In this document: piece by piece, positions 27,705 to 42,825 of the stretch
Position numbering within the stretch: position 1 is the stretch's first letter
How the letters are laid out: every line of letters starts with the position of its first letter
NCBI RefSeq assembly: GCF_025144995.1
Contig: NZ_CP102250.1
Location: 1,116,001 to 1,180,000, forward strand
DNA: 64,000 nucleotides
Source: Alistipes indistinctus YIT 12060
GTDB taxonomy: Bacteria; Bacteroidota; Bacteroidia; Bacteroidales; Rikenellaceae
Direction of reading: 5' to 3'
Made by a program: the position numbers and the translations under genes
The notes under the pieces: model-generated
Database searches by the model: none
The model's input: only the letters and a program-made list of their open reading frames with translations
What the model was told of the DNA's origin: nothing

Positions 27705-28412
27705 TTAAAAAGTGCCTCGCAGGCCATAACCGCGCGTGGCGCAGAAAACCTGACTGTAAATGTGGAAACCGGGACGCGAAGTCTCGATCTTGCGGTCGAG
27801 TTGCAGGATCGGGTGTCCCGGCTTGACGCGCAGGTGTTCCTGCAGACGCTTATCCGCCCGGATCGCATACAACTGCTGCGTCCCGCCCGTCACGACGATC
27901 TGGTATTTCGTGCGCAGAAAGTCGAACAGCGAGGTATTCTCCAGGTTATACGAAGTAAACCGCGGCAGGTTGATATTCGGCAGCATCGTAATATCGAGGA
28001 ACACAGGCTCGCCGTTAAGCAGCCGAAGCCGTTCGAAATAGATGCATCCGACCTCCTGTTCATACGGGGTGACCGGAAACGAAAACGCCTCGGTCCAGGA
28101 ACGCACTTCCGGCCGGAGGATGATATGCGTGAGGAAATCCTCGCGCCCGACGGCCGATGTGGTACCCGTCAGCGAAAGAATACCGATTCCTTTGGGCACA
28201 CCTTTCACGATACTTCCTTTTCCCTGGTGTTTCAGGATAAACCCGTCGGCCACCAGTTGATCGAGCGCACGACGCACGGTTGGCCGGGCGACCCGGTGCA
28301 CAATGCTCAGTTCATGTTCGGAGGGCAACAAATCGCCCGCAGAATAGACTCCCTCGGCGATATGGCGCCGGAGGGTTTCGTAAACTTGTTTATATCGGGG
28401 CAGCTCTACCAT
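27705..28412 (-). CDS. GntR-family regulator with UTRA effector domain (HutC subfamily)
   Basis: A 235-residue repressor-type protein: N-terminal winged helix (residues 4-70, YKQVYETLRRHIAEGVY, LLPSEHEL, RPTVRRALDQLVADGF) and a C-terminal UTRA domain that binds small ligands, often sugar phosphates or amino-acid derivatives. I chose the start at 28412 because the protein then begins MVELPRYKQ, as family members do; the longer frame (to 28562) would run through its own promoter. It is divergent from the E2-E3-E1 cluster with candidate operators in between, so it very likely controls that cluster and itself. A sugar phosphate made by the pathway is the likely inducer (inference). Confidence 0.88.
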   Translation of the reverse strand: MVELPRYKQVYETLRRHIAEGVYSAGDLLPSEHELSIVHRVARPTVRRALDQLVADGFILKHQGKGSIVKGVPKGIGILSLTGTTSAVGREDFLTHIILRPEVRSWTEAFSFPVTPYEQEVGCIYFERLRLLNGEPVFLDITMLPNINLPRFTSYNLENTSLFDFLRTKYQIVVTGGTQQLYAIRADKRLQEHLRVKPGHPILQLDRKIETSRPGFHIYSQVFCATRGYGLRGTF

Positions 28413-28472
28413 GGCATTTTGAAGGTCTGATTCAGACGCCTGAAAGTCAGGCGCAAAAAGTTTAGTCGAAGC

Positions 28473-28504
28473 CAAATATAGGCAAAGATATCGGGCCTGA
28501 CAAA
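28473..28504 (-). promoter_or_regulatory. Bacteroidota-type promoter of the GntR/UTRA gene
   Basis: Minus strand TTTG (28504-28501), a 20-base spacer and TATATTTG (28480-28473) match the consensus exactly. The start point would be near 28466, inside the longer reading frame, which supports the start codon at 28412. Confidence 0.75.
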
Positions 28505-28521
28505 TTTTTGTCGGGAAAATT

Positions 28522-28531
28522 TGTATATACA
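28522..28531. promoter_or_regulatory. Candidate GntR/HutC operator 1
   Basis: TGTATATACA is a perfect palindrome that contains the HutC-subfamily core GTnTAnAC. It lies 17 bases upstream of the -33 box of the regulator gene. Confidence 0.55.
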
Positions 28532-28605
28532 TGTTCACAACTTGTAAACCTTCAGGATACACACAATCACCTATATATCAACGTTTAGAAAAATCAATAA
28601 AAATC

Positions 28606-28621
28606 ACTTGTATATATAAGT
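28606..28621. promoter_or_regulatory. Candidate GntR/HutC operator 2 overlapping the cluster promoter
   Basis: ACTTGTATATATAAGT is a 16-bp palindrome with one mismatched pair. It shares TTGTATATA with operator 1 and covers the -33 element of the E2 promoter, the position expected for repression. A half-like ACTTGTAAAC copy lies at 28540-28549. Confidence 0.55.
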
Positions 28622-28637
28622 TATTGTTGTAACTTTG
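28607..28637 (+). promoter_or_regulatory. Promoter of the E2-E3-E1 cluster
   Basis: CTTG at 28607-28610, a 19-base spacer and TAACTTTG at 28630-28637 fit the Bacteroidota consensus with one mismatch in the -33 box. The start codon of E2 is 54 bases downstream. Confidence 0.65.
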
Positions 28638-28691
28638 CAAAAACCGGATTTTGCGGAGAACTAACTAAATCATACATAACTTAAAACTCAT

Positions 28692-30026
28692 ATGGCAACA
28701 GTAGTCATCATGCCTAAACAGGGACAGTCCGTCGAGAGCTGTATCCTGACCGAAATGAAAAAGAAAAAGGGCGACACAGTCGCCGTGGGCGACATCCTTT
28801 TCTCCTACGAGACAGATAAGGCTTCGTTCGAAGAGGAGGCCCAGGTGGCCGGCACCGTATTGGACGTTTTTTTCGACGACGGCGACGAAATTCCGGTGCT
28901 GACCAACGTAATGGTAATCGGCAACGAGGGTGAAAGCACCGCAGAGTTCCGTCCGGGCGGAGAAGCCGCTGCTCCCGCAGCCGAAACCCCGGTTGCCGCC
29001 GCTGCTGCTCCCGCAGCAACACCCGCTATCGCAGCCGCAACTGCCGTCAAGCCCGCTACCACCGAAGGCACTTCACCCGTATCGCCGCGCGCCCGCGCAC
29101 TGGCGGAAAAAGAGGCGGTCAACGCCGCCGCGCTGCAAGGTTCCGGCCCTCACGGCCGCGTCATCGAACGCGACGTACAGGCCGCCATCGCCGCCACGCC
29201 CAAACTCACCCCGTTGGCGAAAGCCATCGCGAAGGAGACCGGTGCGGCCGCACCCGAAGCGGGCAGCGGATTGGCCGGCATGGTCAAAGGCGCCGATATG
29301 GGGGCCCTCAAGAACAGCGTTTACGCGACCGACAGCGAGATCAAGCCGCTGACCAACATGCGCAAGCTGATCGCCAAAGCGATGCACGCATCGTTGCAAA
29401 ATTCGGCCCAGCTGACGCACCACCTCAGCGCGGACGCCCGCCGCATCCTGGAACTGCGGAAGAAAGTCAAGAAAGCCGTCGACAACGGCTACCCGACCAA
29501 CATCACCCTCAACGACATGGTCTGCATGGCGGTAATCAAAGCGCTTAAAAAATTCCCGCAGGTCAACTCGCATTTCCTCGGTGACAGCACGCGCGTTTTT
29601 TCGAAAGTCCACCTCGGCCTGGCCGTCGATACCGACCGCGGCCTGATGGTGCCGACGGTGAAAAATGCCGACGACCTTTCGATCCAGGGCCTCGCCAACC
29701 AACTCAAAGAGGTTGCCAACGCCTGCAAGAAGGGCTCGATCGATCCCGACCTGCTCTCTTCCGAAGCAGCATCGTTCACCGTATCGAACCTCGGCAACTA
29801 CGGCGTCGAGATCTTTACCCCCGTGATCAACCTGCCGCAGGTGGCGATCCTCGGTGTGAATACGATCGTACCCCGCCCGAAAGATATCGGCGGCGGCGTA
29901 TACGCCTTCGTGCCGCACATCGGCCTGAGCCTCACCTACGACCACCGCGCACTGGACGGCGGCGAGGCGACCCGCTTCGTCAAAGAGGTAGCCAACGAAA
30001 TCGAAGCGCTCGACTTCGAACTTTAA
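28692..30026 (+). CDS. 2-oxoacid dehydrogenase E2, lipoyl acyltransferase with two E3-binding domains
   Basis: A 444-residue E2. Residues 1-80 form one lipoyl domain with the lipoyl lysine in ETDKAS. An Ala/Pro-rich linker follows (about 90-125). A peripheral-subunit-binding domain lies at about 126-165 (SPRARALAEKEAVNAA, GSGPHGRVIERDV). A second copy follows at about 168-205 (LTPLAKAIAKETGAA, GSGLAGMVKGADM). Two such domains are unusual. The C-terminal catalytic core (from about 215) ends with YDHRALDGGEA, the HxxxDG motif of the acyltransferase site. The protein moves an acyl group from E1 to CoA. It is the first gene of the cluster, 72 bases before E3. Confidence 0.92.
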   Translation: MATVVIMPKQGQSVESCILTEMKKKKGDTVAVGDILFSYETDKASFEEEAQVAGTVLDVFFDDGDEIPVLTNVMVIGNEGESTAEFRPGGEAAAPAAETPVAAAAAPAATPAIAAATAVKPATTEGTSPVSPRARALAEKEAVNAAALQGSGPHGRVIERDVQAAIAATPKLTPLAKAIAKETGAAAPEAGSGLAGMVKGADMGALKNSVYATDSEIKPLTNMRKLIAKAMHASLQNSAQLTHHLSADARRILELRKKVKKAVDNGYPTNITLNDMVCMAVIKALKKFPQVNSHFLGDSTRVFSKVHLGLAVDTDRGLMVPTVKNADDLSIQGLANQLKEVANACKKGSIDPDLLSSEAASFTVSNLGNYGVEIFTPVINLPQVAILGVNTIVPRPKDIGGGVYAFVPHIGLSLTYDHRALDGGEATRFVKEVANEIEALDFEL

Positions 30027-30098
30027 TTAAATGCACGGCGGAGCGGAAGTTCTTACGACACCGCCCCGCACACCATTAACAGACTTAAATCGACAAAA

Positions 30099-31463
30099 AT
30101 GATAGATTTGGCAATTATCGGCGGCGGCCCGGGCGGATACGTGGCTGCGGAACGTGCCGGAGCGAAAGGGTTGAACGTCGTGCTGTTCGAGAAGCGCGAG
30201 TTGGGCGGTGTCTGCCTCAACGAGGGGTGTATTCCGACCAAAACGCTGCTTTACAGCGCGAAGATATACGACTATGCGAAGCACGGCGACAAATACGGCG
30301 TATTCGCAGCGGATGCGACCTACGACTACGGCAAGATCGTGGACCGCAAGAACAAAGTGGTCCGCAAACTGGTCGGCGGCGTGGGCGCCAAGATGAAAGC
30401 GCACAACGTCAAAGTCGTCAAAGGTGAAGCGAAAATCAAAGGCCGCTCTGAAAACGGGATCGAAATCGAGTGCAACGGCGAGACCTACTACGCAGTCAAC
30501 CTGTTGCTCTGCACCGGTTCGGAGGCTTTCGTACCGCCGATCCCGGGTCTGAAGGAGGCCGGCGACATCATCCTGACGAACCGTGAAATCCTGGCGATGA
30601 AAGAACAGCCCAAATCGCTGGTGATTATCGGAGGAGGCGTGATCGGGATGGAGTTCGCGAGCTTCTTCAACAGCCTCGGCACCGAAGTGACGGTCGTAGA
30701 GATGTTGCCCGAAATCCTCGGCGGCCTCGACGGCGAAATCAGCGCGATGCTGCGCGATATCTATGCGAAAAAAGGCATCAAGTTCAACCTGTCGTGCCGT
30801 GTGACCGAAATCAAAGGCAACGAGGTGATCTATGTCGATCCGCAGGGCAATACCGCATCGGCCAAAGGAGACAAGATACTGGTCAGCGTCGGCCGCCGAG
30901 CGGTAACCGCCGGATTGGGCCTCGAAACGTTAGGCGTGGAGCTGAACCGCGGCGCGGTAAAAGTAGACAACAAGATGCGCACGAACATACCGAACGTCTT
31001 TGCCGCAGGCGACGTGACGGGCTTTTCGATGCTCGCACATACGGCCAGCCGCGAAGGCGAGGTGGTCGTGAACAACCTGACCGGACGTCCGGACGTCATG
31101 CGTTACAACGCTATCCCGGGCGTGGTTTACACGAATCCCGAAGTGGCAGGTGTCGGCCTGACCGAAGAGTCGGCCAAAAAGGAAGGTATCGCATACCGCA
31201 TCCAGAAGCTCCCCATGGCCTATGCCGGACGCTTCGTCGCTGAAAACGAAGGAGGCACGGGCATCTGCAAAGTGCTCGTCGGCGAGCAGTACGGCGAAGT
31301 GCTCGGCGTGCATATGCTCGGCAACCCGTGCAGCGAAATCATCTACGGCGCCTGCATGGCCATCGAGCAGGAGATGACGCTCAAGGAGATGGAAGAGGTG
31401 GTTTTCCCGCACCCGACCGTGTCGGAAATTTTCAAGGAGACCGTCTTCGCCTTCGGAGAATAA
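30099..31463 (+). CDS. lpdA: Dihydrolipoamide dehydrogenase (E3)
   Basis: A 454-residue flavoprotein disulfide reductase. The FAD motif GGGPGGYVAAERAG, the redox pair GGVCLNEGCIPTK, the NAD motif IGGGVIGMEFASFFNSLG, the second FAD motif NVFAAGDVTG, and the C-terminal HPTVSE with the catalytic His-Glu pair are all present. The enzyme reoxidises dihydrolipoyl E2 with NAD. It lies between E2 and E1 genes and is surely part of the same complex; it could also serve the glycine cleavage system if no other E3 exists in the genome. Confidence 0.95.
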   Translation: MIDLAIIGGGPGGYVAAERAGAKGLNVVLFEKRELGGVCLNEGCIPTKTLLYSAKIYDYAKHGDKYGVFAADATYDYGKIVDRKNKVVRKLVGGVGAKMKAHNVKVVKGEAKIKGRSENGIEIECNGETYYAVNLLLCTGSEAFVPPIPGLKEAGDIILTNREILAMKEQPKSLVIIGGGVIGMEFASFFNSLGTEVTVVEMLPEILGGLDGEISAMLRDIYAKKGIKFNLSCRVTEIKGNEVIYVDPQGNTASAKGDKILVSVGRRAVTAGLGLETLGVELNRGAVKVDNKMRTNIPNVFAAGDVTGFSMLAHTASREGEVVVNNLTGRPDVMRYNAIPGVVYTNPEVAGVGLTEESAKKEGIAYRIQKLPMAYAGRFVAENEGGTGICKVLVGEQYGEVLGVHMLGNPCSEIIYGACMAIEQEMTLKEMEEVVFPHPTVSEIFKETVFAFGE

Positions 31464-31571
31464 CACAAATCGGGGGAGCGAGCCGGCCCGGCGCATCTGA
31501 ACCGCTATAAAAACGGGGAAAAGAGCAGCTTCTCATACAACCAGCAAAAAACCTAAAAACAAATAACAGTT

Positions 31572-34052
31572 ATGCCTAAGTCACAATACATCGATCCTAA
31601 AGAGATGCGGAAAGCCGGTGAGATCACCTTCTCGCCGATCCCCGTCAACCAGTACAAAAAAACCGCGAAGGAGGAGCTCAAAAGCAAGCACTTCACCAAA
31701 GACGACCTGAAGCGTATCTACCGCGACATGGTGGTGATCCGCGAATTCGAAACGATGCTGCAACTGGTGAAGACCACCGGCGGCTACAACGGCGTCGAAT
31801 ACAACAACCCTGGCCCCGCCCACCTCTCGGCCGGCCAGGAAGCCGCTGCTGTCGGGATGGCCTACATGCTCGACATCAACGACTTTATCTTCGGTTCCCA
31901 CCGCAGCCACGGCGAAATTCTCGCCAAAGGCCTGCGTGCCATCGAACTGCTCGACGACAAGTCGCTCGAAAAGATCATGAACGAATTCTGGGACGGCGCC
32001 ACCGTGAACGTTGCCAAAAAGGCATACAAAGGCGGCTCGGTCAAGGAACTCGGTATCCGCTTCCTGCTGTACGGCGCACTGGCCGAAATTTTTGCCCGTA
32101 CGACCGGATTCAACAAAGGACTGGGCGGCAGCATGCACACCTTCTTCACGCCGTTCGGCATCTACCCGAACAACGCCATCGTAGGCGGCAGCGGCAGTAT
32201 CGCCGTCGGCGCGGCCCTCTATAAAAAAGTAAACCGCAAACCCGGTATCGTCGTGGCCAACATCGGCGACGCTTCGATGGCACGCGGTCCGGTCTGGGAA
32301 GGCATGACCTTCGCCGCCATGGACCAATTCAAACAGCTCTGGGAAGGCGACATGAAAGGCGGCCTGCCGGTGATCATCAACATCATGGACAACCAGTACG
32401 GCATGGGCGGACAGACCCGCGGAGAGACGATGGGCTTCGATTTCGCAGCCCGCATCGGCGCCGGCGTGAACCCCGAGCAGATGCATGCCGAACGCGTGGA
32501 CGGCTTCAATCCGCTGGCCGTGATCGACGCTTACCGCCGCAAGAAAGCGATCCTCGAAAAAGAGAAGGCCGGCCCCGTGCTGCTCGACGTGTTGACCTAC
32601 CGTTACAGCGGCCACTCGCCCTCGGACGCATCGTCGTACCGCACCAAAGAGGAGGTCGAAGCATGGGAGGCACAGGATTGCATCGTATCGTACGGCAAGG
32701 AACTGATCGACGCAGGTGTTGCCACACAGGCCGACTTGGACGCAGTCACCAAGGAGATCAAGGAGATCATGTTCGACACTTTCAAGCTCTCGATCGACGA
32801 CGAGCTCTCGCCGCGCATGGACCTGCACAAAGAGCCGGAACTGCTCGGCACGATGATGTTCTCGAATCAGAGCATCGACTCTCTGTCGGACGCCAAACCC
32901 GACGTAAACCATCCGATGAGCGAAAACCCGCGCGTGCAGCAGATCGCCAAAAAGGAGCGCTTCGCATTCGACAAGGACGGCAAGCCGTTCTCGAAAATGA
33001 AACAGTTCCAACTGCGCGACGGTATCTTCGAAGCGATCATCGACCGTTTCTACAAAGACGCTTCGCTGGTGGCCTACGGGGAGGAAAACCGTGACTGGGG
33101 CGGAGCATTCGCCGTGTACCGCGGCCTGACCGAGGCACTACCCTACCACCGCCTGTTCAATGCACCGATCGCCGAGGCGGCCATCATCGGCACCGCAATC
33201 GGATACGCAATGTGCGGCGGACGCGTGATCCCCGAAATCATGTATTGCGACTTCCTCGGCTGCTGCGGCGACGAGGTATTCAACCAACTGCCCAAATGGC
33301 AGGCGATGAGCGGCAACATCCTCAAGATGCCCGTGGTCGTACGCGTGTCGGTCGGTTCGAAATACGGTGCGCAGCACTCGCAGGACTGGACTTCTCTGGC
33401 GGCACATATCCCTGGCCTGAAGGTCGTGTTCCCCGTTACGCCCTATGACGCGAAGGGGCTGATGAATGCCGCCCTGCAAGGCACCGACCCGGTGATCTTC
33501 TTCGAGAGCCAGCGCATTTACGACGTGGGCGAACAGTTCCACGAAGGCGGCGTACCGGAAGGATATTATGAAATTCCGTTGGGCGAACCCGACGTGAAAC
33601 GCGAAGGCAAGGACATCACGATCCTCACGATCGGTGCGACGTTGTACCGGGCGCTCGACGCAGCGAAAGTGCTGGAAGAAAAATACGGCATGAGCGCCGA
33701 AGTGATCGATGCCCGCTCGCTGGTTCCGTTCAACTACGAGAAAGTGCTCGAGTCGGTTAAGAAAACCGGACGCATCATCATCGCAGGCGACGCCACCAGC
33801 CGCGGATCGTTCCTCAACGACCTGGCCCGCAACGTCACCGAATTGGCCTTCGACGAATTGGATGCGCCTCCCGTGGTGCTCGGTTCACGCGACTGGATCA
33901 CGCCGGCCTACGAGCTCGAATACGCTTTCTTCCCGCAGGTGGACAGCTTCATCGATGCCATTCATGAGAAGATCGTTCCGCTCAAGGGACACGTGCCGAC
34001 CCGCAACTACACCGATGCGGAGCAAATCCGCCGCGCTAAAGCGGGCATTTAA
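31572..34052 (+). CDS. Fused alpha-beta E1 component of a 2-oxoacid dehydrogenase complex
   Basis: An 826-residue fusion. The alpha part (about residues 40-430) holds the TPP site, and the beta part (about 475-826) has GEENRDWGGAF, APIAEAAIIGTAIG, HSQDWTSLAAHIPGLKVVFP and DPVIFFESQ. The TPP motif is not standard: GDG...NN is GDA at 232-234 and DN at 273-274, with an insertion of about 12 residues (LWEGDMKGG region) between them. The Mg ligands Asp233 and Asn274 are kept. The fusion is known in Bacteroidota, but the length exceeds the common 650-690 residues. Substrate could be pyruvate, a branched-chain acid, acetoin-like compounds or a sugar-derived 2-oxoacid; the neighbours favour the last. 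Confidence 0.85.
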   Translation: MPKSQYIDPKEMRKAGEITFSPIPVNQYKKTAKEELKSKHFTKDDLKRIYRDMVVIREFETMLQLVKTTGGYNGVEYNNPGPAHLSAGQEAAAVGMAYMLDINDFIFGSHRSHGEILAKGLRAIELLDDKSLEKIMNEFWDGATVNVAKKAYKGGSVKELGIRFLLYGALAEIFARTTGFNKGLGGSMHTFFTPFGIYPNNAIVGGSGSIAVGAALYKKVNRKPGIVVANIGDASMARGPVWEGMTFAAMDQFKQLWEGDMKGGLPVIINIMDNQYGMGGQTRGETMGFDFAARIGAGVNPEQMHAERVDGFNPLAVIDAYRRKKAILEKEKAGPVLLDVLTYRYSGHSPSDASSYRTKEEVEAWEAQDCIVSYGKELIDAGVATQADLDAVTKEIKEIMFDTFKLSIDDELSPRMDLHKEPELLGTMMFSNQSIDSLSDAKPDVNHPMSENPRVQQIAKKERFAFDKDGKPFSKMKQFQLRDGIFEAIIDRFYKDASLVAYGEENRDWGGAFAVYRGLTEALPYHRLFNAPIAEAAIIGTAIGYAMCGGRVIPEIMYCDFLGCCGDEVFNQLPKWQAMSGNILKMPVVVRVSVGSKYGAQHSQDWTSLAAHIPGLKVVFPVTPYDAKGLMNAALQGTDPVIFFESQRIYDVGEQFHEGGVPEGYYEIPLGEPDVKREGKDITILTIGATLYRALDAAKVLEEKYGMSAEVIDARSLVPFNYEKVLESVKKTGRIIIAGDATSRGSFLNDLARNVTELAFDELDAPPVVLGSRDWITPAYELEYAFFPQVDSFIDAIHEKIVPLKGHVPTRNYTDAEQIRRAKAGI

Positions 34053-34087
34053 CCGGACTCGTCCGATTAGTAACCAAGCAATGAACC

Positions 34088-35290
34088 ATGTGCGAATTCT
34101 GTCAATCCAATTCCAAGCATAAGGTACAGGAGGTGAGCGTCAACGCCCACCTCCACACACCTTACTCCTTCAGCGCTTTCGACACACTGACCGACGCCCT
34201 CAACCGGGCTGTGGCGGAAAACGTCAAGGTAGTCGGCATCAACGACTTTTACACGACCGCAGGCTACGGGGAGTGGGACCGGGAGTGCCGCAAGCGTAAA
34301 CTCTATCCGCTGTTCAACATCGAATTCATCAGCCTGCACAAGGCCGACCAAGAAGCCGGCGTACGGGTCAACGACCCGAACAACCCGGGCCGCACCTACC
34401 TCAGCGGCAAAGGACTGGCTTGCCCGCCCGTACTGCCCGAGCCGTATGCCTCGCAACTGGCACGCGTGTGCGCCGAGACGCATGAGCAGGTGAAACAAAT
34501 GTGCGCGAAGCTCAACGAACTGCTCGCCGAGCAGCAGACGGGCATCGTCCTCGATTTCGAATGGATCGAGAAGAACCTGACGGGCGGTTCTATCCGCGAA
34601 AGGCACTTGGCCAAAGCGCTGCGCATGAAGGCCTATGAAACGTTCGGCGAAGAGAACCAGGAGACGCTGACGGCTTTTTTCACGAAACTCTTCGGCGGCA
34701 AGCCGCTCAAATCGAAACTGTCCAACGTGGCGGGCGTCGAGAATGAAATCCGCGGCAACCTGCTCAAATCGGGAGGAGCGGCTTTCGTGGCCGAAACCCC
34801 GGCGGCATTCCTGCCGATGGAGGACGTGCGCAAAATCATCCTCGCGGCAGGCGGTATTCCGACCTACCCCTTCCTGGCCGATGACGCCAACGGCAATTTC
34901 ACGCAGTTCGAGGCAGATGTGCGGACGACCGCTGCCGAACTCAAAAAACGCGGTATCTTCTCGGTCGAATTCATCACCACGCGCAACAGCATCGAGGTGT
35001 TGGAACGCTATGCCGGTTACCTGCACGACAGCGGCTTCGTCGTCACGTTCGGCAGCGAACACAACACCCCGGCGATGGAACCGATCGAGCTCTTCGCGCG
35101 CGGCGGCGTACCGCTGACCCCGCGCCTGCGGCAGATAGGCTACGAAGGAGCCTGTGTCGTGGCCGCACACCAGGATATCGTCCAGAGCGGTATGCAGGGC
35201 TATGTAGACAGCCGCGGCGTGGCCGACATAGACAAGCGTGACGAATACGTCGCTTACGGAGACAAAGTAATCAAAGCGGTGATCGGCTGA
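34088..35290 (+). CDS. PHP-domain metal-dependent phosphoesterase-like protein of unknown function
   Basis: A 400-residue protein with the PHP pattern: His21 and His23 in NAHLHTPYS (motif 1), GINDF with Asp53 (motif 2), a metal-type Glu in FNIEF, GSEHN near residue 330 and AHQD near 358. The family includes histidinol phosphatase, polymerase-associated domains and nucleotide or sugar phosphoesterases. It has no membrane or signal sequence. The start lies only 35 bases after the E1 stop, and the aldolase-SDR gene follows, so it belongs to the same catabolic unit. A sugar-phosphate phosphatase or cyclic phosphate hydrolase role would fit, but is inference. A central insertion (about residues 120-220) is larger than in simple PHP phosphatases. 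Confidence 0.72.
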   Translation: MCEFCQSNSKHKVQEVSVNAHLHTPYSFSAFDTLTDALNRAVAENVKVVGINDFYTTAGYGEWDRECRKRKLYPLFNIEFISLHKADQEAGVRVNDPNNPGRTYLSGKGLACPPVLPEPYASQLARVCAETHEQVKQMCAKLNELLAEQQTGIVLDFEWIEKNLTGGSIRERHLAKALRMKAYETFGEENQETLTAFFTKLFGGKPLKSKLSNVAGVENEIRGNLLKSGGAAFVAETPAAFLPMEDVRKIILAAGGIPTYPFLADDANGNFTQFEADVRTTAAELKKRGIFSVEFITTRNSIEVLERYAGYLHDSGFVVTFGSEHNTPAMEPIELFARGGVPLTPRLRQIGYEGACVVAAHQDIVQSGMQGYVDSRGVADIDKRDEYVAYGDKVIKAVIG

Positions 35291-35395
35291 TCCGTAGCGC
35301 CCGCACTGTGAAGGGAAAAGAAAAATAACGAGGTCCCCTTCTACCTTACCAGTGCATCGCCTCCGGGATTCCATCACCAGACTAAATGCAAAACC

Positions 35396-37357
35396 ATGAA
35401 CGAGATAAAACAGTTAATCCGCATATCGCAGTTCTACGGCTCCGACAGCCGCTATGTGATCGCCGGCGGAGGCAATACCTCTTACAAAAATGCTGACAAG
35501 CTGTGGGTGAAAGCCAGCGGGCACGCGCTCGCGACGATCACCGAAGAGGGGTTTGCGGTACTCGACCGCAACAAACTGAACGTCATTTCTCAAAAGCAAT
35601 ATCCCGCGGATACGGCCGCGCGCGAAGAAGAGGTCAAAAACGACCTGGCCGCCGCCTGCATCACGAAGGATCGCCGCCCGAGCGTCGAAACGTCGCTGCA
35701 CAATGCGCTGAGCGCAAGTTTCATCGTCCACCTGCACCCGACGCTCGTCAACGGGCTGATGTGTGCGCAAGATGTGGAACAGGTGACCAAGAAACTCTTC
35801 GGCGACGAAGCGCTCTATATTCCCTATATCGATCCGGGCTACATCCTTTTCAAAGAGGTGGAACGCCGCATCCGGGAATATACCCAAGCGCACGGCCACG
35901 AACCTGCGATCATCCTGCTCCAGAACCACGGTATCTTCGTCGGGGCCGAATCGACCGAGAAGATACAGGCTATTTACGACGAAGTGCTCGGCAAGATCGA
36001 AAAAGCGCTGACCAAGACCGCACCGGTGGGCGAGGCCGATATTTGCGCCTGCACGCAGGAGATCATCCCGGCCATCCGCATGATGGCAAGCAGTAAAGAG
36101 GGACTCAAAACGCTCAAGGTCATTAATAACGAGTTGATCTCCTATTTCATCGAGTCGAAAGAACGCTTCGCAAAGATTTCGAAACCCTTCTCGCCCGACA
36201 TCATCGTCTATTGCAAATCGAACTACATCTATATCGACAGCGAAGGCACCGAGGCTATTCTCGAAACGGCCCGAAAGGAGATCGAAGCCTATAAGGCAAA
36301 ATACGGTTACGCCCCGAAAGTGATTCTGATCAAAGGAATCGGGCTGGTGGCCGTAGGCGACAACGCCGCAGGCTGTAACATCATCGCCGAGGTTTACCAG
36401 GACATGATGAAGATCGCCTACCTGGCCCAGTCGTTCGGCGGCGAGCATCCGATGACCCAGACCCAGATCGATTTTATCGACAACTGGGAGGTGGAAAACT
36501 ACCGCCGCAAAGTGAGCGCGGGGGCAACCGCAGGGCGCGTCGAGAACAAGACGATCATCGTCACCGGGGCCGCACAGGGTTTCGGCGAGGGGATCGCACG
36601 CTGCCTGATCCAGCAGGGGGCCAACATCGTGGTGGCCGACCTGAACGAGGCGGTCGGCGCCAAAACCGCCGAGAACCTCAACGCGCTGGCCAAAAGCAAC
36701 CGGGCGATCTTCGTCAAGACGAACGTAGCCGACACGGCGAGCCTGCGCGAGCTGATCCACAAAACGGTCTGCGCATTCGGCGGACTCGACGTATTCATCA
36801 GCAATGCAGGGGTACTGCGCGCCGGAGGCCTCGAGGAGATGACGCCCGAAAACTTCGAGTTCGTCACCAAGATCAATTACAACGCCTATTTCTACTGCGC
36901 CCAGGCCGCGTCACGGGTGATGAAACTGCAGAACAAATACTGCGAAGAAAATTACTGCGACATCATCCAGATCAACTCGAAGTCGGGCCTGCGGGGGTCG
37001 AAAGCCAACTTCGCCTATGCGGGCGGCAAATTCGGCGGTATCGGCCTCACGCAATCGTTCGCCCTCGAGCTGGCGCCGTTCCGTATCAAAGTGAACGCCG
37101 TCTGCCCCGGTAACTTCTACGAAGGGCCGCTGTGGAGCAATCCCGAGAACGGGCTTTTCCTGCAATACCTGCATGCCGGCAAGGTGCCGGGAGCAAAGAC
37201 CGTCGAGGACGTGCGCGCCTTCTACATGGCGCAGGTACCGATGCGCAAAGGCACCGGCCCCGAAGATGTGACCAAAGCGGTCCTCTACCTGATCGACCAG
37301 ACGTGTGAAACGGGACAGGCGCTCCCGGTGACGGGCGGCCAGGTGATGTTGAGCTAA
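35396..37357 (+). CDS. Bifunctional class II aldolase / short-chain dehydrogenase (RhaEW-like architecture)
   Basis: A 653-residue two-domain protein. Residues 1-370 are a class II aldolase with GGGNTS (24-29), catalytic-type Glu98, and zinc ligands His112, His114 and His178. From about 384 an SDR domain follows with VTGAAQGFGEG and the YAGGK catalytic Tyr-Lys pair. RhaEW of other phyla has this build and joins rhamnulose-1-phosphate aldolase with lactaldehyde dehydrogenase. The rhamnose operon next door lacks both functions, so that role is plausible. The N-terminus differs from typical RhaEW, so another phosphorylated ketose is possible. Confidence 0.8.
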   Translation: MNEIKQLIRISQFYGSDSRYVIAGGGNTSYKNADKLWVKASGHALATITEEGFAVLDRNKLNVISQKQYPADTAAREEEVKNDLAAACITKDRRPSVETSLHNALSASFIVHLHPTLVNGLMCAQDVEQVTKKLFGDEALYIPYIDPGYILFKEVERRIREYTQAHGHEPAIILLQNHGIFVGAESTEKIQAIYDEVLGKIEKALTKTAPVGEADICACTQEIIPAIRMMASSKEGLKTLKVINNELISYFIESKERFAKISKPFSPDIIVYCKSNYIYIDSEGTEAILETARKEIEAYKAKYGYAPKVILIKGIGLVAVGDNAAGCNIIAEVYQDMMKIAYLAQSFGGEHPMTQTQIDFIDNWEVENYRRKVSAGATAGRVENKTIIVTGAAQGFGEGIARCLIQQGANIVVADLNEAVGAKTAENLNALAKSNRAIFVKTNVADTASLRELIHKTVCAFGGLDVFISNAGVLRAGGLEEMTPENFEFVTKINYNAYFYCAQAASRVMKLQNKYCEENYCDIIQINSKSGLRGSKANFAYAGGKFGGIGLTQSFALELAPFRIKVNAVCPGNFYEGPLWSNPENGLFLQYLHAGKVPGAKTVEDVRAFYMAQVPMRKGTGPEDVTKAVLYLIDQTCETGQALPVTGGQVMLS

Positions 37358-37418
37358 CCTGCGCGGAATCAGCATAAAACAATGTCCCGCAGGAAGTTCG
37401 ATATTTTTAGGCGAGTTT

Positions 37419-37451
37419 TTTGCGGGACAAATTTTATAATGCGTATATTTG
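37419..37451 (+). promoter_or_regulatory. Internal promoter before the zinc dehydrogenase gene
   Basis: TTTG at 37419-37422, a 21-base spacer and TATATTTG at 37444-37451 match the consensus. The start codon at 37489 is 37 bases downstream, so the second half of the cluster can be transcribed apart. It also argues against the in-frame upstream ATG at 37420. Confidence 0.75.
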
Positions 37452-37488
37452 CAGCCGAAAGCGGCAAGTATCGTTAAAACGAGCGATC

Positions 37489-38766
37489 ATGAAAACGAAA
37501 GCAGTCAGACTATATGGCAAGAACGACCTCCGGCTGGAGGAGTTCGAGCTGCCGCAAATCAAAGAGGATGAGATCCTCGCGAAAGTAGTGTGCGACAGTA
37601 TTTGCATGTCCTCCTACAAAGCCTCCCACGAGGCGGACATCCACAAACGCGTTCCGCGCGACATCGCCCAAAATCCGGTCATCATCGGCCACGAGTTCGC
37701 CGGTGAGATCGTCGAAGTGGGCGCCAAGTGGAAAGAGAAATTCACTCCCGGAGCTAAATTTTCGATCCAACCCGCACTCAATTACGAAAAAGGGCCGGTC
37801 GGCGTATTGAGCGCCCCGGGCTATTCGTACCGTTATATCGGCGGCGACGCCACCTACGTGGTAATCCCCAACGAAGTGATGGAACAAGGTTGCCTGCTCA
37901 ACTATACGGGCAAAGGCTTTTACCCCGGTGCGCTCTCCGAACCGCTCTCGTGCGTAATCGGGGCGATGCACGCCAATTACCACATCACGCCCGGCTCGTA
38001 CGTGCACCAGATGGAGATCGCCGAAGGCGGTTGCATGGCCATTCTGGCCGGCGTGGGACCGATGGGCCTCGCCGCGATCAACTACGCGATCCATCGCAAA
38101 GACCGCAAGCCGAGGCTGATCGTCGTGACCGATATCGACCAGAGCCGTCTCGACCGCGCCGCATCGCTCTATTCGCCCGAAGAGGCCGCCAAGAACGGTA
38201 TCGAGCTGAAATACGTGAACACCGGCGCAATGGCCGACCCGACCGCCGAACTGAAAGCGCTCACGGGCGGCAAAGGTTATAACGACGTGTTCGTCTTCGC
38301 CCCGGTGGTGCCGGTAGTGGAACAGGCAGACGCGATCCTGGCGTTCGACGGATGCCTGAACTTCTTCGCAGGCCCGGCCAAGACCGACTTCAAGGCCCCG
38401 TTCAACTTCTACAACGTGCACTATGCCTACACGCACGTCGTGGGTACGAGCGGCGGCAATACGGCCGATATGATCGAAGCGCTCGAAATGATGAGCGCAG
38501 GGCTCGACCCGGCCGGGCTGGTAACGCACGTCGGAGGCCTGAACGCCGTGATCGACACGACGTTGAACCTGCCCAATATTCCGGGCGGGAAGAAATTGAT
38601 ATATACCCACATCGAAATGCCGCTGACACCGATCGTGAATTTCGGGAAGTTGGGTGAAAAGAACCCTGTGTACGCAGAGTTGGATAAAATCTGCGCACGC
38701 CACAAGGGTCTGTGGAACACGGAAGCCGAGGAGTACCTCCTCGCACATGCCGCCCAGCTGGCTTAA
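37489..38766 (+). CDS. Zinc-type medium-chain dehydrogenase, SorE-like
   Basis: A 425-residue medium-chain alcohol dehydrogenase. The catalytic-zinc cysteine segment VVCDSICMSSYK, the GHEFAGEIVEVG motif, the ALSEPLSCVIGAMHANY segment and a Rossmann motif LAGVGPMGLAAINYA are visible. It resembles sorbitol-phosphate/sorbose-phosphate dehydrogenase-like proteins (SorE group) more than simple alcohol dehydrogenases. It likely oxidises or reduces a ketose or polyol phosphate with NAD(P). The start at 37489 follows from the promoter just upstream. It lies between the aldolase-SDR and the two-domain aldolase genes. Confidence 0.75.
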   Translation: MKTKAVRLYGKNDLRLEEFELPQIKEDEILAKVVCDSICMSSYKASHEADIHKRVPRDIAQNPVIIGHEFAGEIVEVGAKWKEKFTPGAKFSIQPALNYEKGPVGVLSAPGYSYRYIGGDATYVVIPNEVMEQGCLLNYTGKGFYPGALSEPLSCVIGAMHANYHITPGSYVHQMEIAEGGCMAILAGVGPMGLAAINYAIHRKDRKPRLIVVTDIDQSRLDRAASLYSPEEAAKNGIELKYVNTGAMADPTAELKALTGGKGYNDVFVFAPVVPVVEQADAILAFDGCLNFFAGPAKTDFKAPFNFYNVHYAYTHVVGTSGGNTADMIEALEMMSAGLDPAGLVTHVGGLNAVIDTTLNLPNIPGGKKLIYTHIEMPLTPIVNFGKLGEKNPVYAELDKICARHKGLWNTEAEEYLLAHAAQLA

Positions 38767-38921
38767 ACCGGCTGCGGCAACCCCAGTGCATCGACAGACC
38801 TGACACGAAGGCTTGGAACGGGCCGGGCAACCGGCCCCGTTTCCGGCCAATAGACCCAGAGTTGAAAAACAGATAACGTCCGGCGCTGGGTCGGACAACA
38901 AACAAACAATTAGGTTAGGTT

Positions 38922-40226
38922 ATGAAACAGTTAGACACCAAGTTGATGCACCCTGCCGAACAGATCAAGGTGATCATCGGCCGCATCTATCGCAGTGGCA
39001 TGACGACCACCTCGGGCGGAAACGTCTCGATCATGGACGACAACGGCGATATGTGGATCACCCCGAGTGCGATCGACAAGGGATCGCTCACCGAACGGGA
39101 CATCATCTGCGTGAAAGCGGACGGTACGATCGTCGGTCCGCACAAACCCTCGTCGGAGTATCCGTTCCACAAGGCGATCTACCAGATGCGCCCGGGAATG
39201 CGCTCGGTTATCCACGCGCACCCGCCCGCACTCGTATCGTTCAGCATCACACACCAGATTCCCAATACCAACATTATCCCGCAGGCGCGCCGTATTTGCG
39301 GCAAGATCGGGTTTGCCCCTTACGCATGTCCCGGCAGCCAGGAACTGGGCCAGAAGATCGCAGCCGAGTTCCGCAACCACCCCGACTACAAAGCGGTGAT
39401 CATGGAGAACCACGGCGTCGTGTTGTGCGGGGAAGACCTCATGGACGCTTACCAGCGTTTCGAGACCCTCGAGCTGTGCGCCCGTACCGAACTGAACGCC
39501 AAAGTGCTCGGCAATCCGACCTACCTGACCGATGAACAAATCGGCCAGCACGAAGCTTCACTGCCCACCGATTATCCGCACTTCATGGGTGTCACTTACC
39601 CGTCGGACGAGCGCGCCATCCGCACCGACATTTGTCGCATCGTGCGTCGTTCGTGCGACCAGGGACTGATGATCAGTACTTACGGTACCGTATCGGTACG
39701 CTGGAGAGGCAACGATTTCCTGATCACCCCCCCGGGCGTGCCCCGCTGGGACATCGAACCTGAAAATATCGTGCAGGTGAAAAACGGCATGGTCGAGGCC
39801 GGCAAAATCCCGAGCCGCTCGGTCGCGATGCACCAGGCCATCTACCAGAGCAACCCGCACATCGACTCGATCATCCTGACGCAGTCGCCCGCGCTGATGG
39901 GTTTCTGCACCTCGGGCGTGAAGTTCGACGTGCGCACGATCCCCGAGAGCTGGATCCAGCTGCAGGATGTACCCATCGTACCGTTCGGCCTCCAGTACGA
40001 AGACCCGATGGCGATTCCCGAAATGACCAAAAAGCATCCGTGCCTGTTATTGGCGAACGACTCGGTACTGATCACGGGCAAGAAGCTGATCGACACGTTC
40101 GACCATTTGGAAGTCGCCGAATTCAGCGCTAAATCTTTGATTATGGCCGCCCCGATCGGCAAACTCAAACCGATCAACGACAAAGAGATCGAAGAACTGC
40201 GGATCGCTTTCCACGTAGGCGAATAA
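38922..40226 (+). CDS. Tandem class II aldolase protein with a degenerate second domain
   Basis: A 434-residue protein made of two class II aldolase/adducin domains. The first (1-215) has Glu79 in SSEY, zinc ligands His98 and His100 in HAHP, and His164 in ENHG, so it should be active. The second (about 222-430) aligns well around HQAIYQ, but Glu79 is Ser300, the HAH pair is TQS (320-322) and ENHG is ANDS (378-381). All catalytic and metal residues are lost, so it is a pseudo-aldolase half. Members cleave fuculose- or rhamnulose-type 1-phosphates or act as decarboxylases or epimerases. It ends the main cluster before a terminator. Confidence 0.8.
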   Translation: MKQLDTKLMHPAEQIKVIIGRIYRSGMTTTSGGNVSIMDDNGDMWITPSAIDKGSLTERDIICVKADGTIVGPHKPSSEYPFHKAIYQMRPGMRSVIHAHPPALVSFSITHQIPNTNIIPQARRICGKIGFAPYACPGSQELGQKIAAEFRNHPDYKAVIMENHGVVLCGEDLMDAYQRFETLELCARTELNAKVLGNPTYLTDEQIGQHEASLPTDYPHFMGVTYPSDERAIRTDICRIVRRSCDQGLMISTYGTVSVRWRGNDFLITPPGVPRWDIEPENIVQVKNGMVEAGKIPSRSVAMHQAIYQSNPHIDSIILTQSPALMGFCTSGVKFDVRTIPESWIQLQDVPIVPFGLQYEDPMAIPEMTKKHPCLLLANDSVLITGKKLIDTFDHLEVAEFSAKSLIMAAPIGKLKPINDKEIEELRIAFHVGE

Positions 40227-40241
40227 GTCTCACAAAAAATC

Positions 40242-40294
40242 AAAGCCCTGCCTGCGGAAACCCGGTAAAACGGACGTACCGGGCCGGGCTTTTT
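40242..40294 (+). terminator. Terminator between the tandem aldolase gene and lplA
   Basis: AAAGCCC (40242-40248) pairs with GGGCTTT (40286-40292), with an inner CCCGG/CCGGG pair, and five T follow. It separates the lipoate ligase from the cluster, so lplA may depend on read-through or an unseen promoter. Confidence 0.65.
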
Positions 40295-40313
40295 CAAACT
40301 CTCTACCGGAACG

Positions 40314-41033
40314 ATGAAACTAATTCTCAGTCCGTGGCACTCCCCGGTGCGGAATTGCGCACTGGAAGAATATATGGTAACAGAACGTCATGACGACGTT
40401 CTGTTATTGTATCGGAATACTCCGTCGGTAATTCTCGGGCGCAACCAGACCGTTGCCGCCGAAATAGACGGGGATTTCTGCCGTGCGCACGGAATTGAAG
40501 TTGTGCGGCGCCTGTCGGGCGGCGGAGCCGTTTACCACGACCTGGGGAACATCAACTATGCGTTCGTCTCGAACAAAGAGGCCTCACCGGTACTGGACCG
40601 CGACTTCCTGAGGCCGGTCGTAACCCTCCTGCAGGTCTTGGGCGTCGAAGCAACAGCGGGCAAACGGAAGGAACTGCTGGCCGGAGGCCGTAAGATTTCG
40701 GGTACTGCCTCGCACGTCACACGCAACCGCCAGCTTTTCCACGGCACACTGCTACACCGGACCGACCTGCACATGCTCGAACAGGCCCTGCGCGGCGACC
40801 GCACGGCGCGAGGCAAAGGCGTGGCCTCGGTACCCAGTCCCGTCGCCAACATCGCCGAACTGCTGCATAGCGATGAAACGACGGAAGCCTTCCTGGAACG
40901 GTTCGGCGCGCTGCTGCTGCAATATTACGGATTGAGCGGTTACTCCCCCATCTCACCGAATGAAACGGAAAGAATCGCTCAAATCGAGCGAATCCGACGT
41001 ATGAAACAGCAGGCGGATAACCACGGAGAATGA
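40314..41033 (+). CDS. lplA: Lipoate-protein ligase A
   Basis: A 239-residue ligase of the LplA/BirA fold. The motifs RNTPSVILGRNQ, RRLSGGGAVYHDLGNINY (lipoate-adenylate binding loop) and GGRKISGTASH with the catalytic lysine are visible. It activates lipoate with ATP and attaches it to the lipoyl lysine of E2-type proteins. The position after the E2-E3-E1 cluster, which encodes a lipoyl protein, gives a clear functional link. The accessory C-terminal domain of the long Escherichia coli LplA is reduced, as in short LplA forms. Alternative octanoyltransferase activity (LipM-like) cannot be excluded. Confidence 0.88.
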   Translation: MKLILSPWHSPVRNCALEEYMVTERHDDVLLLYRNTPSVILGRNQTVAAEIDGDFCRAHGIEVVRRLSGGGAVYHDLGNINYAFVSNKEASPVLDRDFLRPVVTLLQVLGVEATAGKRKELLAGGRKISGTASHVTRNRQLFHGTLLHRTDLHMLEQALRGDRTARGKGVASVPSPVANIAELLHSDETTEAFLERFGALLLQYYGLSGYSPISPNETERIAQIERIRRMKQQADNHGE

Positions 41034-41344: not shown

Positions 41345-41659
41345 TTACGCCATGTAAAACAGTTCGGGGAGCGGAATCGAAACGGGCGAGTTATCCGGAT
41401 TGGTCTCCATGATATCGGCCATATAATCCCACCATTTCTGCACGATCGGGGTCGGTCCCAGATCCTGCGAGGTTTGCTCGCCTTCGATTTTCTGCACGGC
41501 AAACAGAATATTCGTCTCCTTGTCCCAGAAGATCGAATAGTCGTATACGCCGGAATCTTTCAACATCTTGACCAGTTCGGGCCAGATTTCGTTGTGGCGT
41601 TTCTGGTACTCGGCCTCGCAACCGGGTTTCAGTTTCATTTTGAATGCACTTCTTTGCAT
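41345..41659 (-). CDS. rhaM: L-rhamnose mutarotase
   Basis: A 104-residue RhaM-family protein. The segments FKMKLKPGCEAEY, KRHNEIWPEL with the catalytic-type His, YDYSIFWD and the C-terminal WWDYMADIM are typical of the family. It speeds interconversion of the alpha and beta anomers of L-rhamnose, so that rhamnose released by the rhamnosidases is usable by the isomerase. It is the last gene of the rhaB-rhaA-rhaT-rhaM operon, 23 bases after rhaT. Length is normal. Confidence 0.93.
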   Translation of the reverse strand: MQRSAFKMKLKPGCEAEYQKRHNEIWPELVKMLKDSGVYDYSIFWDKETNILFAVQKIEGEQTSQDLGPTPIVQKWWDYMADIMETNPDNSPVSIPLPELFYMA

Positions 41660-41682
41660 GGTAGTATCTCTTTTAGGTTAAG

Positions 41683-42720
41683 TTAAAACAGCGACGGGAA
41701 GAAAACCGAGAAGATCAGCAGCAGCAGGCCGCAGCACAGCACCACGATCGTTTTGCCCCGACTGCCTTTCCACTCCTTGAGAACGATTCCCCAGAAGTTG
41801 CTGAAAACGATGTTCAGCGACATGAGGATGCTCCAACTGAACGCCATCAGTATCGCATTGCCGGAGATAAAGCTCTGGCCCATGCCCAGGAACAGGAACT
41901 GCATGTACCACAGCGACCCGCCCAACAGCGAGAAGAGCAGGTTACGCACCAGCACGGAGCTGCCTACAGTGCGGAACTCCTTCAGCGATTTATTCTTGCT
42001 GAACAGGTAGATGCAGTAAACGAAGTTGGTCAGGAAACCGCCGAACATCACGAAAATGTGCACCGGGCTGAACGACAGCAGCGCCGAGCATCCATTGGCG
42101 ATCGCCGCATCGGCGATAGGCTGGCCGGCGGCCAGGCCGTAAGCCATGCAGGCGCTCATCAGACCGGCGAAAATCGCAATGATCAGCCCCTTCTTCAACG
42201 CGAATTCCTTGACTGCGGCTTTCTTTTCCTCCTCGGTCAGTCCCTTGTCACGCAGCGATCCGGCATAGCCGATTACCGCGATACCGGCCAGCGAGATAGC
42301 CACACCGACCAACATCGCCCAACCGCCGGGAGTGGTAAAGAGGTTCTGCCCGGCCACGATCGGCGGAATCACCGTACCGAATGCGGCACAGAATCCGGCA
42401 GAGATCGACTGTCCGAGCGAAATACCCAGATAGCGCATGCTGAGGCCCCAGGTAAGACCGCCGATGCCCCACAGCGCACCGAACAGAACGGCCAGGAACA
42501 TGGATTTGGCAGGAGCGGCCGTCAGTACCGTTCCCAATGCGGAAAAAGGTACGGCATAAAGTGTGAAGGCCCACGGCAGGATGATCCACGACACGATGCC
42601 CTGGCAAATCCAGTAAGTCTCCCACGACCAGTTTTTAATCTTGTTGATGGGAGCGTAATAGCTCGACCCGGCAAACGACCCGATGGTCATCAGCAAGATT
42701 CCGATAAGTAGGTTATCCAT
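41683..42720 (-). CDS. rhaT: L-rhamnose-proton symporter
   Basis: A 345-residue membrane protein with about ten predicted helices and the drug/metabolite-transporter-like fold of RhaT. The N-terminal GSFAGSSYYAPINKIKNW and WGIGGLTWGLSMRYLG segments match the RhaT family closely. It imports L-rhamnose with protons across the inner membrane. It lies between rhaA and rhaM. A substrate other than rhamnose is unlikely, given the operon. Confidence 0.93.
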   Translation of the reverse strand: MDNLLIGILLMTIGSFAGSSYYAPINKIKNWSWETYWICQGIVSWIILPWAFTLYAVPFSALGTVLTAAPAKSMFLAVLFGALWGIGGLTWGLSMRYLGISLGQSISAGFCAAFGTVIPPIVAGQNLFTTPGGWAMLVGVAISLAGIAVIGYAGSLRDKGLTEEEKKAAVKEFALKKGLIIAIFAGLMSACMAYGLAAGQPIADAAIANGCSALLSFSPVHIFVMFGGFLTNFVYCIYLFSKNKSLKEFRTVGSSVLVRNLLFSLLGGSLWYMQFLFLGMGQSFISGNAILMAFSWSILMSLNIVFSNFWGIVLKEWKGSRGKTIVVLCCGLLLLIFSVFFPSLF

Positions 42721-42825
42721 AAGTTTTCAGTTAGTTTAGGTAGCCTTGTTGTAAGACAGGACGAAAGCGTTGATCCGTCCGGACAACGCTTTCGACCATT
42801 CTTGGTATATGTCCGATAAGAGGAA

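Follow-up and report, generated by a model that had tools for sequence, protein, structure and literature searches.

In L-sorbose catabolism, SorE reduces the ketose 1-phosphate at C2 and a partner short-chain dehydrogenase/reductase (SDR) oxidizes the opposite end of the hexitol phosphate. The chemistry of E1-E2-E3 complexes that use thiamine diphosphate (ThDP) and lipoate is familiar for acetoin and 2-oxoacids, and we know of none for sugars. In L-rhamnose catabolism the aldolase RhaD can be replaced by RhaEW, an aldolase/lactaldehyde dehydrogenase fusion (Rodionova et al. 2013, PMC3870299). In 5-deoxyribose salvage (kinase, isomerase and aldolase; PMC6079011), the deoxysugar phosphate is cut by an aldolase after phosphorylation and isomerization, and the opening part of the abstract mentions no ThDP/lipoate complex. 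An operon of Alistipes indistinctus YIT 12060 can be compared with all of these systems. It lies at nucleotides 27705-41033 of a stretch of 64,000 nucleotides (the window) that corresponds to bases 1116001-1180000 of a single-contig, 2.86-Mb genome (completeness 99.9%). Taken as a whole, the operon may best be explained as a 6-deoxyhexose catabolic module with an aldolase-free core, a reading drawn from sequence comparisons in which we place a little less than even confidence. It would represent a new pathway variant within a known kind of object, the sugar-catabolic operon, possibly with new chemistry, that is widespread in gut bacteria and apparently undescribed; in agreement with a preliminary description of this DNA, no account of a pathway with this gene set was found in the literature searched.

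All reading frames of the operon are open. A minus-strand gene for a GntR/UTRA regulator (27705-28412; Pfam GntR 60 bits, UTRA 63 bits; the start, read from the frame, is the ATG at 28412) lies opposite eight plus-strand genes separated by gaps of 35-155 bp, and the open frames, Pfam matches and short gaps confirm the preliminary description of such a regulator facing a plus-strand row that ends in a lipoate ligase. The row starts with an E2 acyltransferase that has one lipoyl, an E3-binding and a catalytic domain (28692-30026; lipoyl DKA and DHRALDGG motifs), an E3 dihydrolipoyl dehydrogenase (30099-31463; TIGR01350 493 bits, above the cut-off of 408.8) and a fused E1 alpha/beta protein of 826 amino acids (31572-34052). 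These are followed by a predicted PHP-fold metal hydrolase (34088-35290); a protein, AldSDR (35396-37357), that we read from Pfam and NCBIfam matches and alignment as a class II aldolase (amino acids 1-190), a degenerate aldolase (191-380) and an SDR (381-653); a medium-chain dehydrogenase/reductase (MDR) of the SorE/YggP, or L-sorbose-1-phosphate reductase, family (37489-38766); a tandem aldolase (38922-40226); and the catalytic domain of a lipoate-protein ligase, LplA (40314-41033; LplA-B_cat 183 bits, TIGR00545 210 bits against a cut-off of 280). Pfam supports the GntR and UTRA domains, the E2 domains, E3, E1alpha plus E1beta, Aldolase_II plus adh_short in AldSDR, the zinc alcohol dehydrogenase domain of the MDR, the two Aldolase_II domains of the tandem aldolase, and LplA.

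The operon is conserved, its core order recurring across Bacteroidales and in the PHP relatives retained from named genomes. Among 150 genomes of the family, PHP was matched in 19, and in 18 after removal of one weak match (18.8 bits, genome G017), which preceded the family counts. The full order, GntR / E2-E3-E1-PHP-AldSDR-MDR-tandem aldolase-LplA, was present in 10 of the 18 family loci fetched, in 5 genera; of the other eight, two (L037 and L038) have neither aldolase and six are fragmented or cut by the ends of contigs or stretches. A scan of named genomes gave 395 PHP relatives, of which the best 80 were kept; all of these are from Bacteroidota by title, 66 have E1 within the fetched stretch, and the closest are loci of Alistipes metagenome-assembled genomes (MAGs) at 70-74% identity, a range that also includes MAGs named Tannerella. 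In a sample of 393 Bacteroidales genomes PHP was matched in 53, from 34 of 205 genera, a few matches being short, fragmentary or weak. Both E1 and PHP were found in 39 of the 54 loci fetched from this sample, accompanied by the SDR in 37, the MDR in 34, GntR in 28, the aldolase part in 27, the tandem aldolase in 3 and LplA in 2; because some contigs entered twice under separate handles, the locus counts are not fully independent. These numbers define a core consisting of E2-(E3)-E1-PHP-SDR-MDR, to which the aldolase parts and LplA are optional additions. At the level of the phylum, PHP was matched in 3 of 395 genomes, namely our own genome and two with short, weak matches, and a plasmid search for PHP gave no match.

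The catalytic motifs of E1, E2 and E3 are all present, as in a 2-oxoacid dehydrogenase complex. The fused E1 is the sole E1 found in the genome (the next match is partial, 24.5 bits), which also encodes a full pyruvate:ferredoxin oxidoreductase (PFOR; 1962 bits, above the cut-off), so that pyruvate need not depend on the E1-E2-E3 complex. In a tree of E1 sequences the window E1 was placed in one clade (100/100) with plasmid-encoded E1s of Rhizobium, Agrobacterium and Pleomorphomonas; it did not group with three acetoin-cluster E1s, nor with the pyruvate dehydrogenase (PDH) and branched-chain 2-oxoacid dehydrogenase (BCKDH) sequences, of which there was one row each, both on long branches that leave the deeper placement unsure. 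By these comparisons the complex is a dedicated, lipoate-dependent one and not the housekeeping pyruvate dehydrogenase. A housekeeping pyruvate or branched-chain dehydrogenase was rejected as the best reading in view of the PFOR and the separate E1 branch, and the preliminary view of a conserved, regulated operon for sugar catabolism with its own lipoate-dependent complex gains from the recurring gene order and the operator motif described below.

The plasmid loci that share this E1 clade (L143-L146) encode a fused E1 that is 52-53% identical to that of the window, with a stand-alone lipoyl protein and an alpha/beta hydrolase encoded after it. Genes for sugar ABC transporters or kinases lie nearby, as does, in two of the four stretches, a sugar-phosphate isomerase gene. 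These loci differ from the operon in that tblastn of three of them gave no match to PHP, AldSDR or the SorE-like enzyme, an alpha/beta hydrolase being found instead, and in that similarity to E2 is confined to the lipoyl protein of one of three loci. Acetoin dehydrogenase (AcoA/AcoB/AcoC/AcoL) is likewise of the E1-E2-E3 type, and the acyloin cleavage to acetyl-CoA that we model below would be the same type of reaction; however, the operon E1 is fused and outside the acetoin clade, and sugar genes take the place of an acetoin reductase. Two clusters outside the window E1 clade were also observed. On the Clostridioides difficile plasmid record NZ_CP149721.1 (23824-37829; L147, L257), E1alpha-E1beta-E2-E3 genes accompany a sigma-54 regulator, phosphotransferase system (PTS) IIA/IIB/IIC components, a class II aldolase and a lipoate ligase; here a complex resembling a 2-oxoacid dehydrogenase has been combined independently with a sugar PTS and an aldolase. 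In Priestia, E1-E2-E3 genes are joined to a glucitol PTS.

Directly downstream of the operon, convergent with it and not mentioned in the preliminary description, are four minus-strand genes (41345-45702) that point to the substrate: rhaM, for L-rhamnose mutarotase (41345-41659; TIGR02625 129 bits, above the cut-off), rhaT, for L-rhamnose permease (41683-42720; PRK13499 356 bits against a cut-off of 369), rhaA, for L-rhamnose isomerase (42826-44079; PRK01076 652 bits, above the cut-off), and rhaB, for a rhamnulokinase that may also act on fuculose (44227-45702; TIGR02627 506 bits, just below the cut-off of 528). The genome therefore has a rhamnose isomerase and kinase, and it also has fucI. 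A RhaD-type aldolase was found neither among the rha genes nor in the rest of the genome, the RhaD model matching only the tandem aldolase (36.5 bits). In the set of genome contigs, rhaA, rhaT, a rhaB-like kinase gene or fucI/fucP is present inside 20 of 37 long loci with E1 and PHP. In the Paludibacter locus L067, fucI and a kinase gene precede E2 directly and in line, the kinase being 68% identical to that encoded by the window rhaB, and fucI was additionally found in L064, L070, L071, L088 and L117. Within the family, rhaA or fucI is present in 17 of the 18 genomes with the cluster vs 54 of the 132 others, the fucI count here taking in all 37 genomes with a match, including three under the cut-off. 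The 55 family genomes with rhaA divide into 14 with the cluster only, 39 with RhaD only, 1 with both and 1 with neither (Fisher p 5e-11), and without the largest genus into 14, 5, 1 and 1 (p 0.0017), p-values that ignore kinship since the tests treat related genomes as independent. RhaD matches below 88 bits (the tandem aldolase, fragments, and G047 at 26 bits) were removed from this tally, in which RhaD calls rest on 88-262 bits, 0 of the 150 genomes being above the curated cut-off of the model. A real RhaD was found in 3 of 34 cluster genomes checked. The operon is thus tied to 6-deoxyhexoses, and of the sugar or sugar acid of the preliminary description the sugar stands, narrowed to L-fucose or L-rhamnose as the most likely substrate. 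In addition, at 5753-8714 of L152 (G075:C95) a second MDR (63%) and an LplA (47%) lead straight into fucI where the contig ends, so that this genome may possess another, truncated cluster, located in a fucose locus.

The two aldolase proteins of the preliminary description were confirmed with two corrections: domain 2 of the tandem aldolase is degenerate, and AldSDR appears to contain an extra degenerate aldolase. All 114 aligned loci have the active-site E and three H in domain 1 of AldSDR (some contigs entering twice). In the tandem aldolase, the catalytic Glu and zinc His residues two and three are kept in domain 1 but gone from domain 2 in the 54 loci aligned. In the genome, class II aldolase domains were found only in the operon. 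The best NCBIfam match of AldSDR is RhaD_aldol-ADH (TIGR02632), with 268.2 bits against a cut-off of 567.75 for assignment as RhaEW. For the tandem aldolase the best NCBIfam model, 3-oxo-tetronate-4-phosphate decarboxylase (172 bits against a cut-off of 250), was dropped as a candidate after homologues with 46-51% identity were located on Persicobacter plasmids (L262, L263), in the operons rhaT-rhaA-kinase-FucO-tandem aldolase and rhaI-kinase-tandem aldolase. Neither E1 nor RhaD was found in these fetched stretches. Because its homologues sit in these rhamnose operons, the tandem aldolase is most likely a rhamnulose-1-phosphate aldolase, and the Persicobacter protein is probably an undescribed, non-orthologous enzyme of that kind, as judged from its gene context.

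Several clusters, including some linked to fucI and fucP, have neither aldolase part but retain the complex, PHP, the SDR and the SorE-like enzyme. The SDR has no aldolase part in 14 loci (L037, L038, L121 and eleven order-level loci). L037, without aldolase parts, faces a fucI fragment and fucP (618 bits) in convergent orientation, and the cluster of G783, a genome that is 99% complete, reads fucI-kinase-fucP-GntR-E2-E3-E1-PHP-SDR-HAD-MDR-FSA, where FSA stands for a fructose-6-phosphate aldolase-type protein; no match to PF00596 was found anywhere in this genome. G796 has fucI-kinase-fucP-like-FSA-GntR-E2-E3-E1-PHP-SDR-MDR, again without aldolase parts, and L240 and L307 (G678) have none either, with kinase-fucI located downstream. 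Nor was a class II aldolase match found in G544, G075 or G055, the last with E1 split over frames. The sole class II aldolase-family gene of G671 (90% complete, short SDR) is AraD, and of ten such genes classified in genomes with a short SDR seven are AraD, two are nearest to fuculose aldolases and one had no match. In L297, L299, L300 and L303 the SDR is short and the aldolase part is encoded separately, by a stand-alone gene beside rhaA and a kinase gene in the first three and a little distant from rhaA in L303. The aldolases lean to the rhamnose branch and not to the core, with no clean rule. The preliminary proposal of an initial aldolase cut is not supported for the common route, and a 2-oxoacid as the substrate of E1 received no direct support, the E1 clade being apart from the PDH and BCKDH rows and SorE/SDR chemistry leading more naturally to an acyloin. 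The aldolase-first 2-oxoacid scheme is probably wrong.

The MDR is 51% identical to Klebsiella SorE over 423 amino acids, the full length, which upholds its earlier description as SorE-like; it is 49-51% identical to three annotated SorE proteins, 52% to Escherichia coli YggP and 25% to 2,3-butanediol dehydrogenase, and three plasmid records label close matches sorE. These identities predict a ketose-1-phosphate reductase of the SorE/YggP family. An analogy of MDR plus PHP to IolM/IolN was rejected, as the IolM model gave only 66 bits, SorE is far closer and no supporting paper was found. The best single-domain model for the SDR is sorbitol-6-phosphate dehydrogenase (208 bits against a cut-off of 307), and its best solved relative is 5o3z, also a sorbitol-6-phosphate dehydrogenase. 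The operon therefore resembles Klebsiella L-sorbose catabolism in having a SorE relative with a sorbitol-6-phosphate dehydrogenase-type SDR alongside, but differs in that it has no PTS or fructose 6-phosphate product, its SDR is 26% identical to that of Klebsiella, and a ThDP/lipoate complex follows. In E. coli, yggP (L260) lies next to tkt, cmtBA and a glpX-type gene, and the identity to the operon MDR suggests that YggP may be a ketose-1-phosphate reductase.

The PHP assignment of the preliminary description stood as to fold: the AlphaFold model (pLDDT 90.8) matched 9etk, 2yb1 and 3o0f in Foldseek with E values of 2.9e-11 to 9.3e-10, and the predicted fold resembles RNase AM/TrpH-type PHP proteins. 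The Pfam score, 22.4 bits, is below the gathering cut-off of 26.4, and the TDH metal motif appears to read NDF (N52, D53, F54), invariant in 39 sequences, a correspondence taken from an alignment to a PHP-family chain at E 0.65 only. PHP copies also occur outside the operon, in L236, L239, L242 and L244 and in L204, L208-L210 and L214; the first four have an aldo-keto reductase gene nearby, some with HAD phosphatase, sulfatase-like or Gfo/Idh-type genes too, and may inform on the reaction of PHP.

Two copies of the palindrome ACTTGTA-NN-TACAAGT, read as the GntR operator, are present between the GntR and E2 genes, at 28519-28534 (2 mismatches) and 28606-28621 (1 mismatch). With up to 3 mismatches, the palindrome was found in 45 of 49 GntR/E2 gaps vs 1.3 expected in shuffles. 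Six of these 49 gaps are duplicates from refetched contigs, and they account for two of the four gaps without a match. The motif is also found upstream of the rhaT-rhaA-aldolase-kinase-FucO-tandem aldolase operon of L297 and of the aldolase genes of L295 and L296. Searches that allowed up to 2 mismatches in 12 further family stretches with rha or fuc genes (L151-L162), and up to 1 in the outer flanks L305-L315, gave no copy.

We infer the reactions past the kinase, the action of the kinase on fuculose, and the effector and sign of the regulator as follows. FucI or RhaA would isomerize L-fucose or L-rhamnose, and a RhaB-type kinase would form L-fuculose 1-phosphate or L-rhamnulose 1-phosphate. 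The SorE-family dehydrogenase would reduce C2 of the ketose 1-phosphate to give a 6-deoxyhexitol phosphate, and the SDR would oxidize the carbon adjacent to the methyl group, following the logic of SorE and then SorD, to a 1-deoxyketohexose 6-phosphate, CH3-CO-CHOH-R. Applied by analogy to fuculose 1-phosphate, this logic would place a methyl ketone beside a carbinol, the acyloin pattern cut by acetoin-type E1s. The fused E1 would cut this acyloin with ThDP, and E2 and E3 would release the two-carbon unit as acetyl-CoA plus NADH, E2 being lipoylated by LplA. The tetrose 4-phosphate left over, D-threo if the stereochemistry of SorE holds, would pass to PHP and, in other genomes, to an aldolase of the FSA type or to HAD phosphatases. 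Some clusters have FSA-type aldolases and HADs resembling phosphoglycolate phosphatase nearby, which would fit the use of threose phosphate. If the reduction is SorE-like, stereochemical bookkeeping leads from both fuculose 1-phosphate and rhamnulose 1-phosphate to the D-threo form. Rhamnose would need two additional class II aldolases, namely the tandem aldolase and the N-terminal part of AldSDR. These might re-form the fuculose epimer by reversible aldol cleavage or divert some of the carbon to dihydroxyacetone phosphate (DHAP) plus L-lactaldehyde. The GntR/UTRA protein would sense a sugar phosphate and repress from the two operators. As to the complex itself, we propose, with clear reservation, a lipoate-dependent, acyl-CoA-forming sugar-phosphate ketolase, which would be the first of its class and whose E1 would oxidatively cleave the 1-deoxyketohexose phosphate; L-fucose would then be degraded without an aldolase, lactaldehyde or propanediol, rhamnose would enter through aldolase adapters, and the same E1 family would serve other sugars in Alphaproteobacteria.

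Several observations weigh against the aldolase-free 6-deoxyhexose module. Besides G783, the aldolase-free genomes are incomplete MAGs (80%, 88% and unknown completeness), and the aldolase genes of G678 and G909 are nearest to fuculose aldolases, though under the cut-off. Six fucI-linked clusters, named below, keep the aldolase part. The resemblance of the aldolase plus SDR fusion to RhaEW, and the homologues of the tandem aldolase that occur with FucO in Persicobacter, L297 and L298, point to lactaldehyde in at least the rhamnose branch. The aldolases track rhamnose, which had suggested that the aldolase part might act as an AraD-like C4 epimerase, but both aldolases have Glu at the catalytic position and an epimerizing role is weakened by it; Glu at this position is aldolase-like, the AraD epimerase having Asp. 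No operator turned up around the window's rha genes, and fucI of this genome is located elsewhere, with no operator, fucP, kinase or aldolase match beside it. Few clusters of the order sample adjoin rha or fuc genes (5 of 28 long loci), and extra HAD, aldo-keto reductase or hexitol phosphate genes in some loci suggest that substrates may vary. The SDR is no closer to the Klebsiella SDR encoded beside sorE (26%) than to acetoin reductase (28.5%), and PHP is left without an assigned step in the model.

In an alternative that we regard as unlikely, yet ahead of the others, carbon would pass at the level of lactaldehyde: the aldolase part and the tandem aldolase would cut rhamnulose 1-phosphate, and fuculose 1-phosphate, to DHAP and L-lactaldehyde, and the SDR, the MDR and the complex would take the three-carbon piece to acetyl-CoA, for example via propanediol and hydroxyacetone or via lactate and pyruvate. 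AldSDR has the architecture of RhaEW, with RhaD_aldol-ADH as its top NCBIfam match, and RhaEW was found experimentally to make DHAP plus L-lactate (PMC3870299). AldSDR is, however, approximately 26% identical to annotated RhaEW and under the cut-off of its model, and the operon adds E1-E2-E3, PHP and the SorE-like enzyme to a fusion whose aldolase part may be absent or a separate gene. Replacement of RhaD by these aldolases alone, retained as a rival, fits the mutual exclusion with RhaD. The tandem-aldolase homologues in the two kinds of Persicobacter rhamnose operon also favour the lactaldehyde route, as does the aldolase part kept in six fucI-linked loci (L064, L067, L070, L071, L088 and L217), five with the tandem aldolase too. 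Replacement of RhaD alone leaves unexplained the fuc-linked cluster of G783, which keeps the SDR, MDR, PHP and complex without any class II aldolase. The MDR, moreover, belongs to a ketose-1-phosphate reductase family and not with the butanediol dehydrogenase compared, and PHP is unexplained.

It is improbable that the complex serves as an inducible dehydrogenase for pyruvate (or 2-oxobutyrate), merely travelling with deoxysugar genes for NADH-linked acetyl-CoA formation. The best NCBIfam models for the E1 halves are PDH beta and alpha, all under the cut-off, and this is the only E1 found in the genome; against this stand the PFOR, the E1 clade shared with rhizobial plasmids and the patchy distribution (18 of 150 family genomes). 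The PFOR, and the linkage of the aldolase genes to the complex in other genomes, run counter to the outcome that according to the preliminary description would have undone its proposal, a sole, constitutive pyruvate or branched-chain dehydrogenase to which no aldolase genes are linked elsewhere. Still more doubtful is another order of the core, in which the SDR would oxidize C5 of the ketose 1-phosphate, E1 would cut C4-C5 to acetyl-CoA and a four-carbon beta-keto-aldehyde phosphate, and PHP would convert the latter to DHAP and formate, for although it needs no aldolase and offers a hydrolytic step to a PHP fold with an altered metal motif, it reduces the MDR to a side step and leaves a SorE-family dehydrogenase present in 34 of 39 order-level loci with no clear role.

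The surroundings of the operon include further genes. A KdsD-type arabinose-5-phosphate isomerase gene (26604-27560) adjoins GntR and is found beside it in all seven same-genus loci with GntR that were fetched and in L036, from another genus, and not in L029-L031 or L033. At 23362-25014 there is a ferredoxin-like plus corrinoid-activator-type (RACo/AcsV-like) protein, at 273 bits far under the cut-off of 800 and odd in this setting. Alpha-L-rhamnosidase-like genes and mannonate oxidoreductase/dehydratase genes flank the operon (19997-23119, 46125-50334 and 50637-52745), which fits the use of pectin (rhamnogalacturonan).

L-Fucose and L-rhamnose are major sugars of gut mucin and pectin. If the proposed module is real, the complex replaces, or works alongside, the aldolases of the textbook pathways, and acetyl-CoA would be made straight from the sugar. 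Whether these sugars end as lactaldehyde and 1,2-propanediol or as acetyl-CoA and acetate matters for cross-feeding and for short-chain fatty acids, and a metabolic reconstruction seeking FucA or RhaD would score the genomes with the cluster as incomplete for fucose or rhamnose. A ThDP/lipoate complex would then act on sugar phosphates, and an E1 family common to Bacteroidota and rhizobia would gain a testable function.

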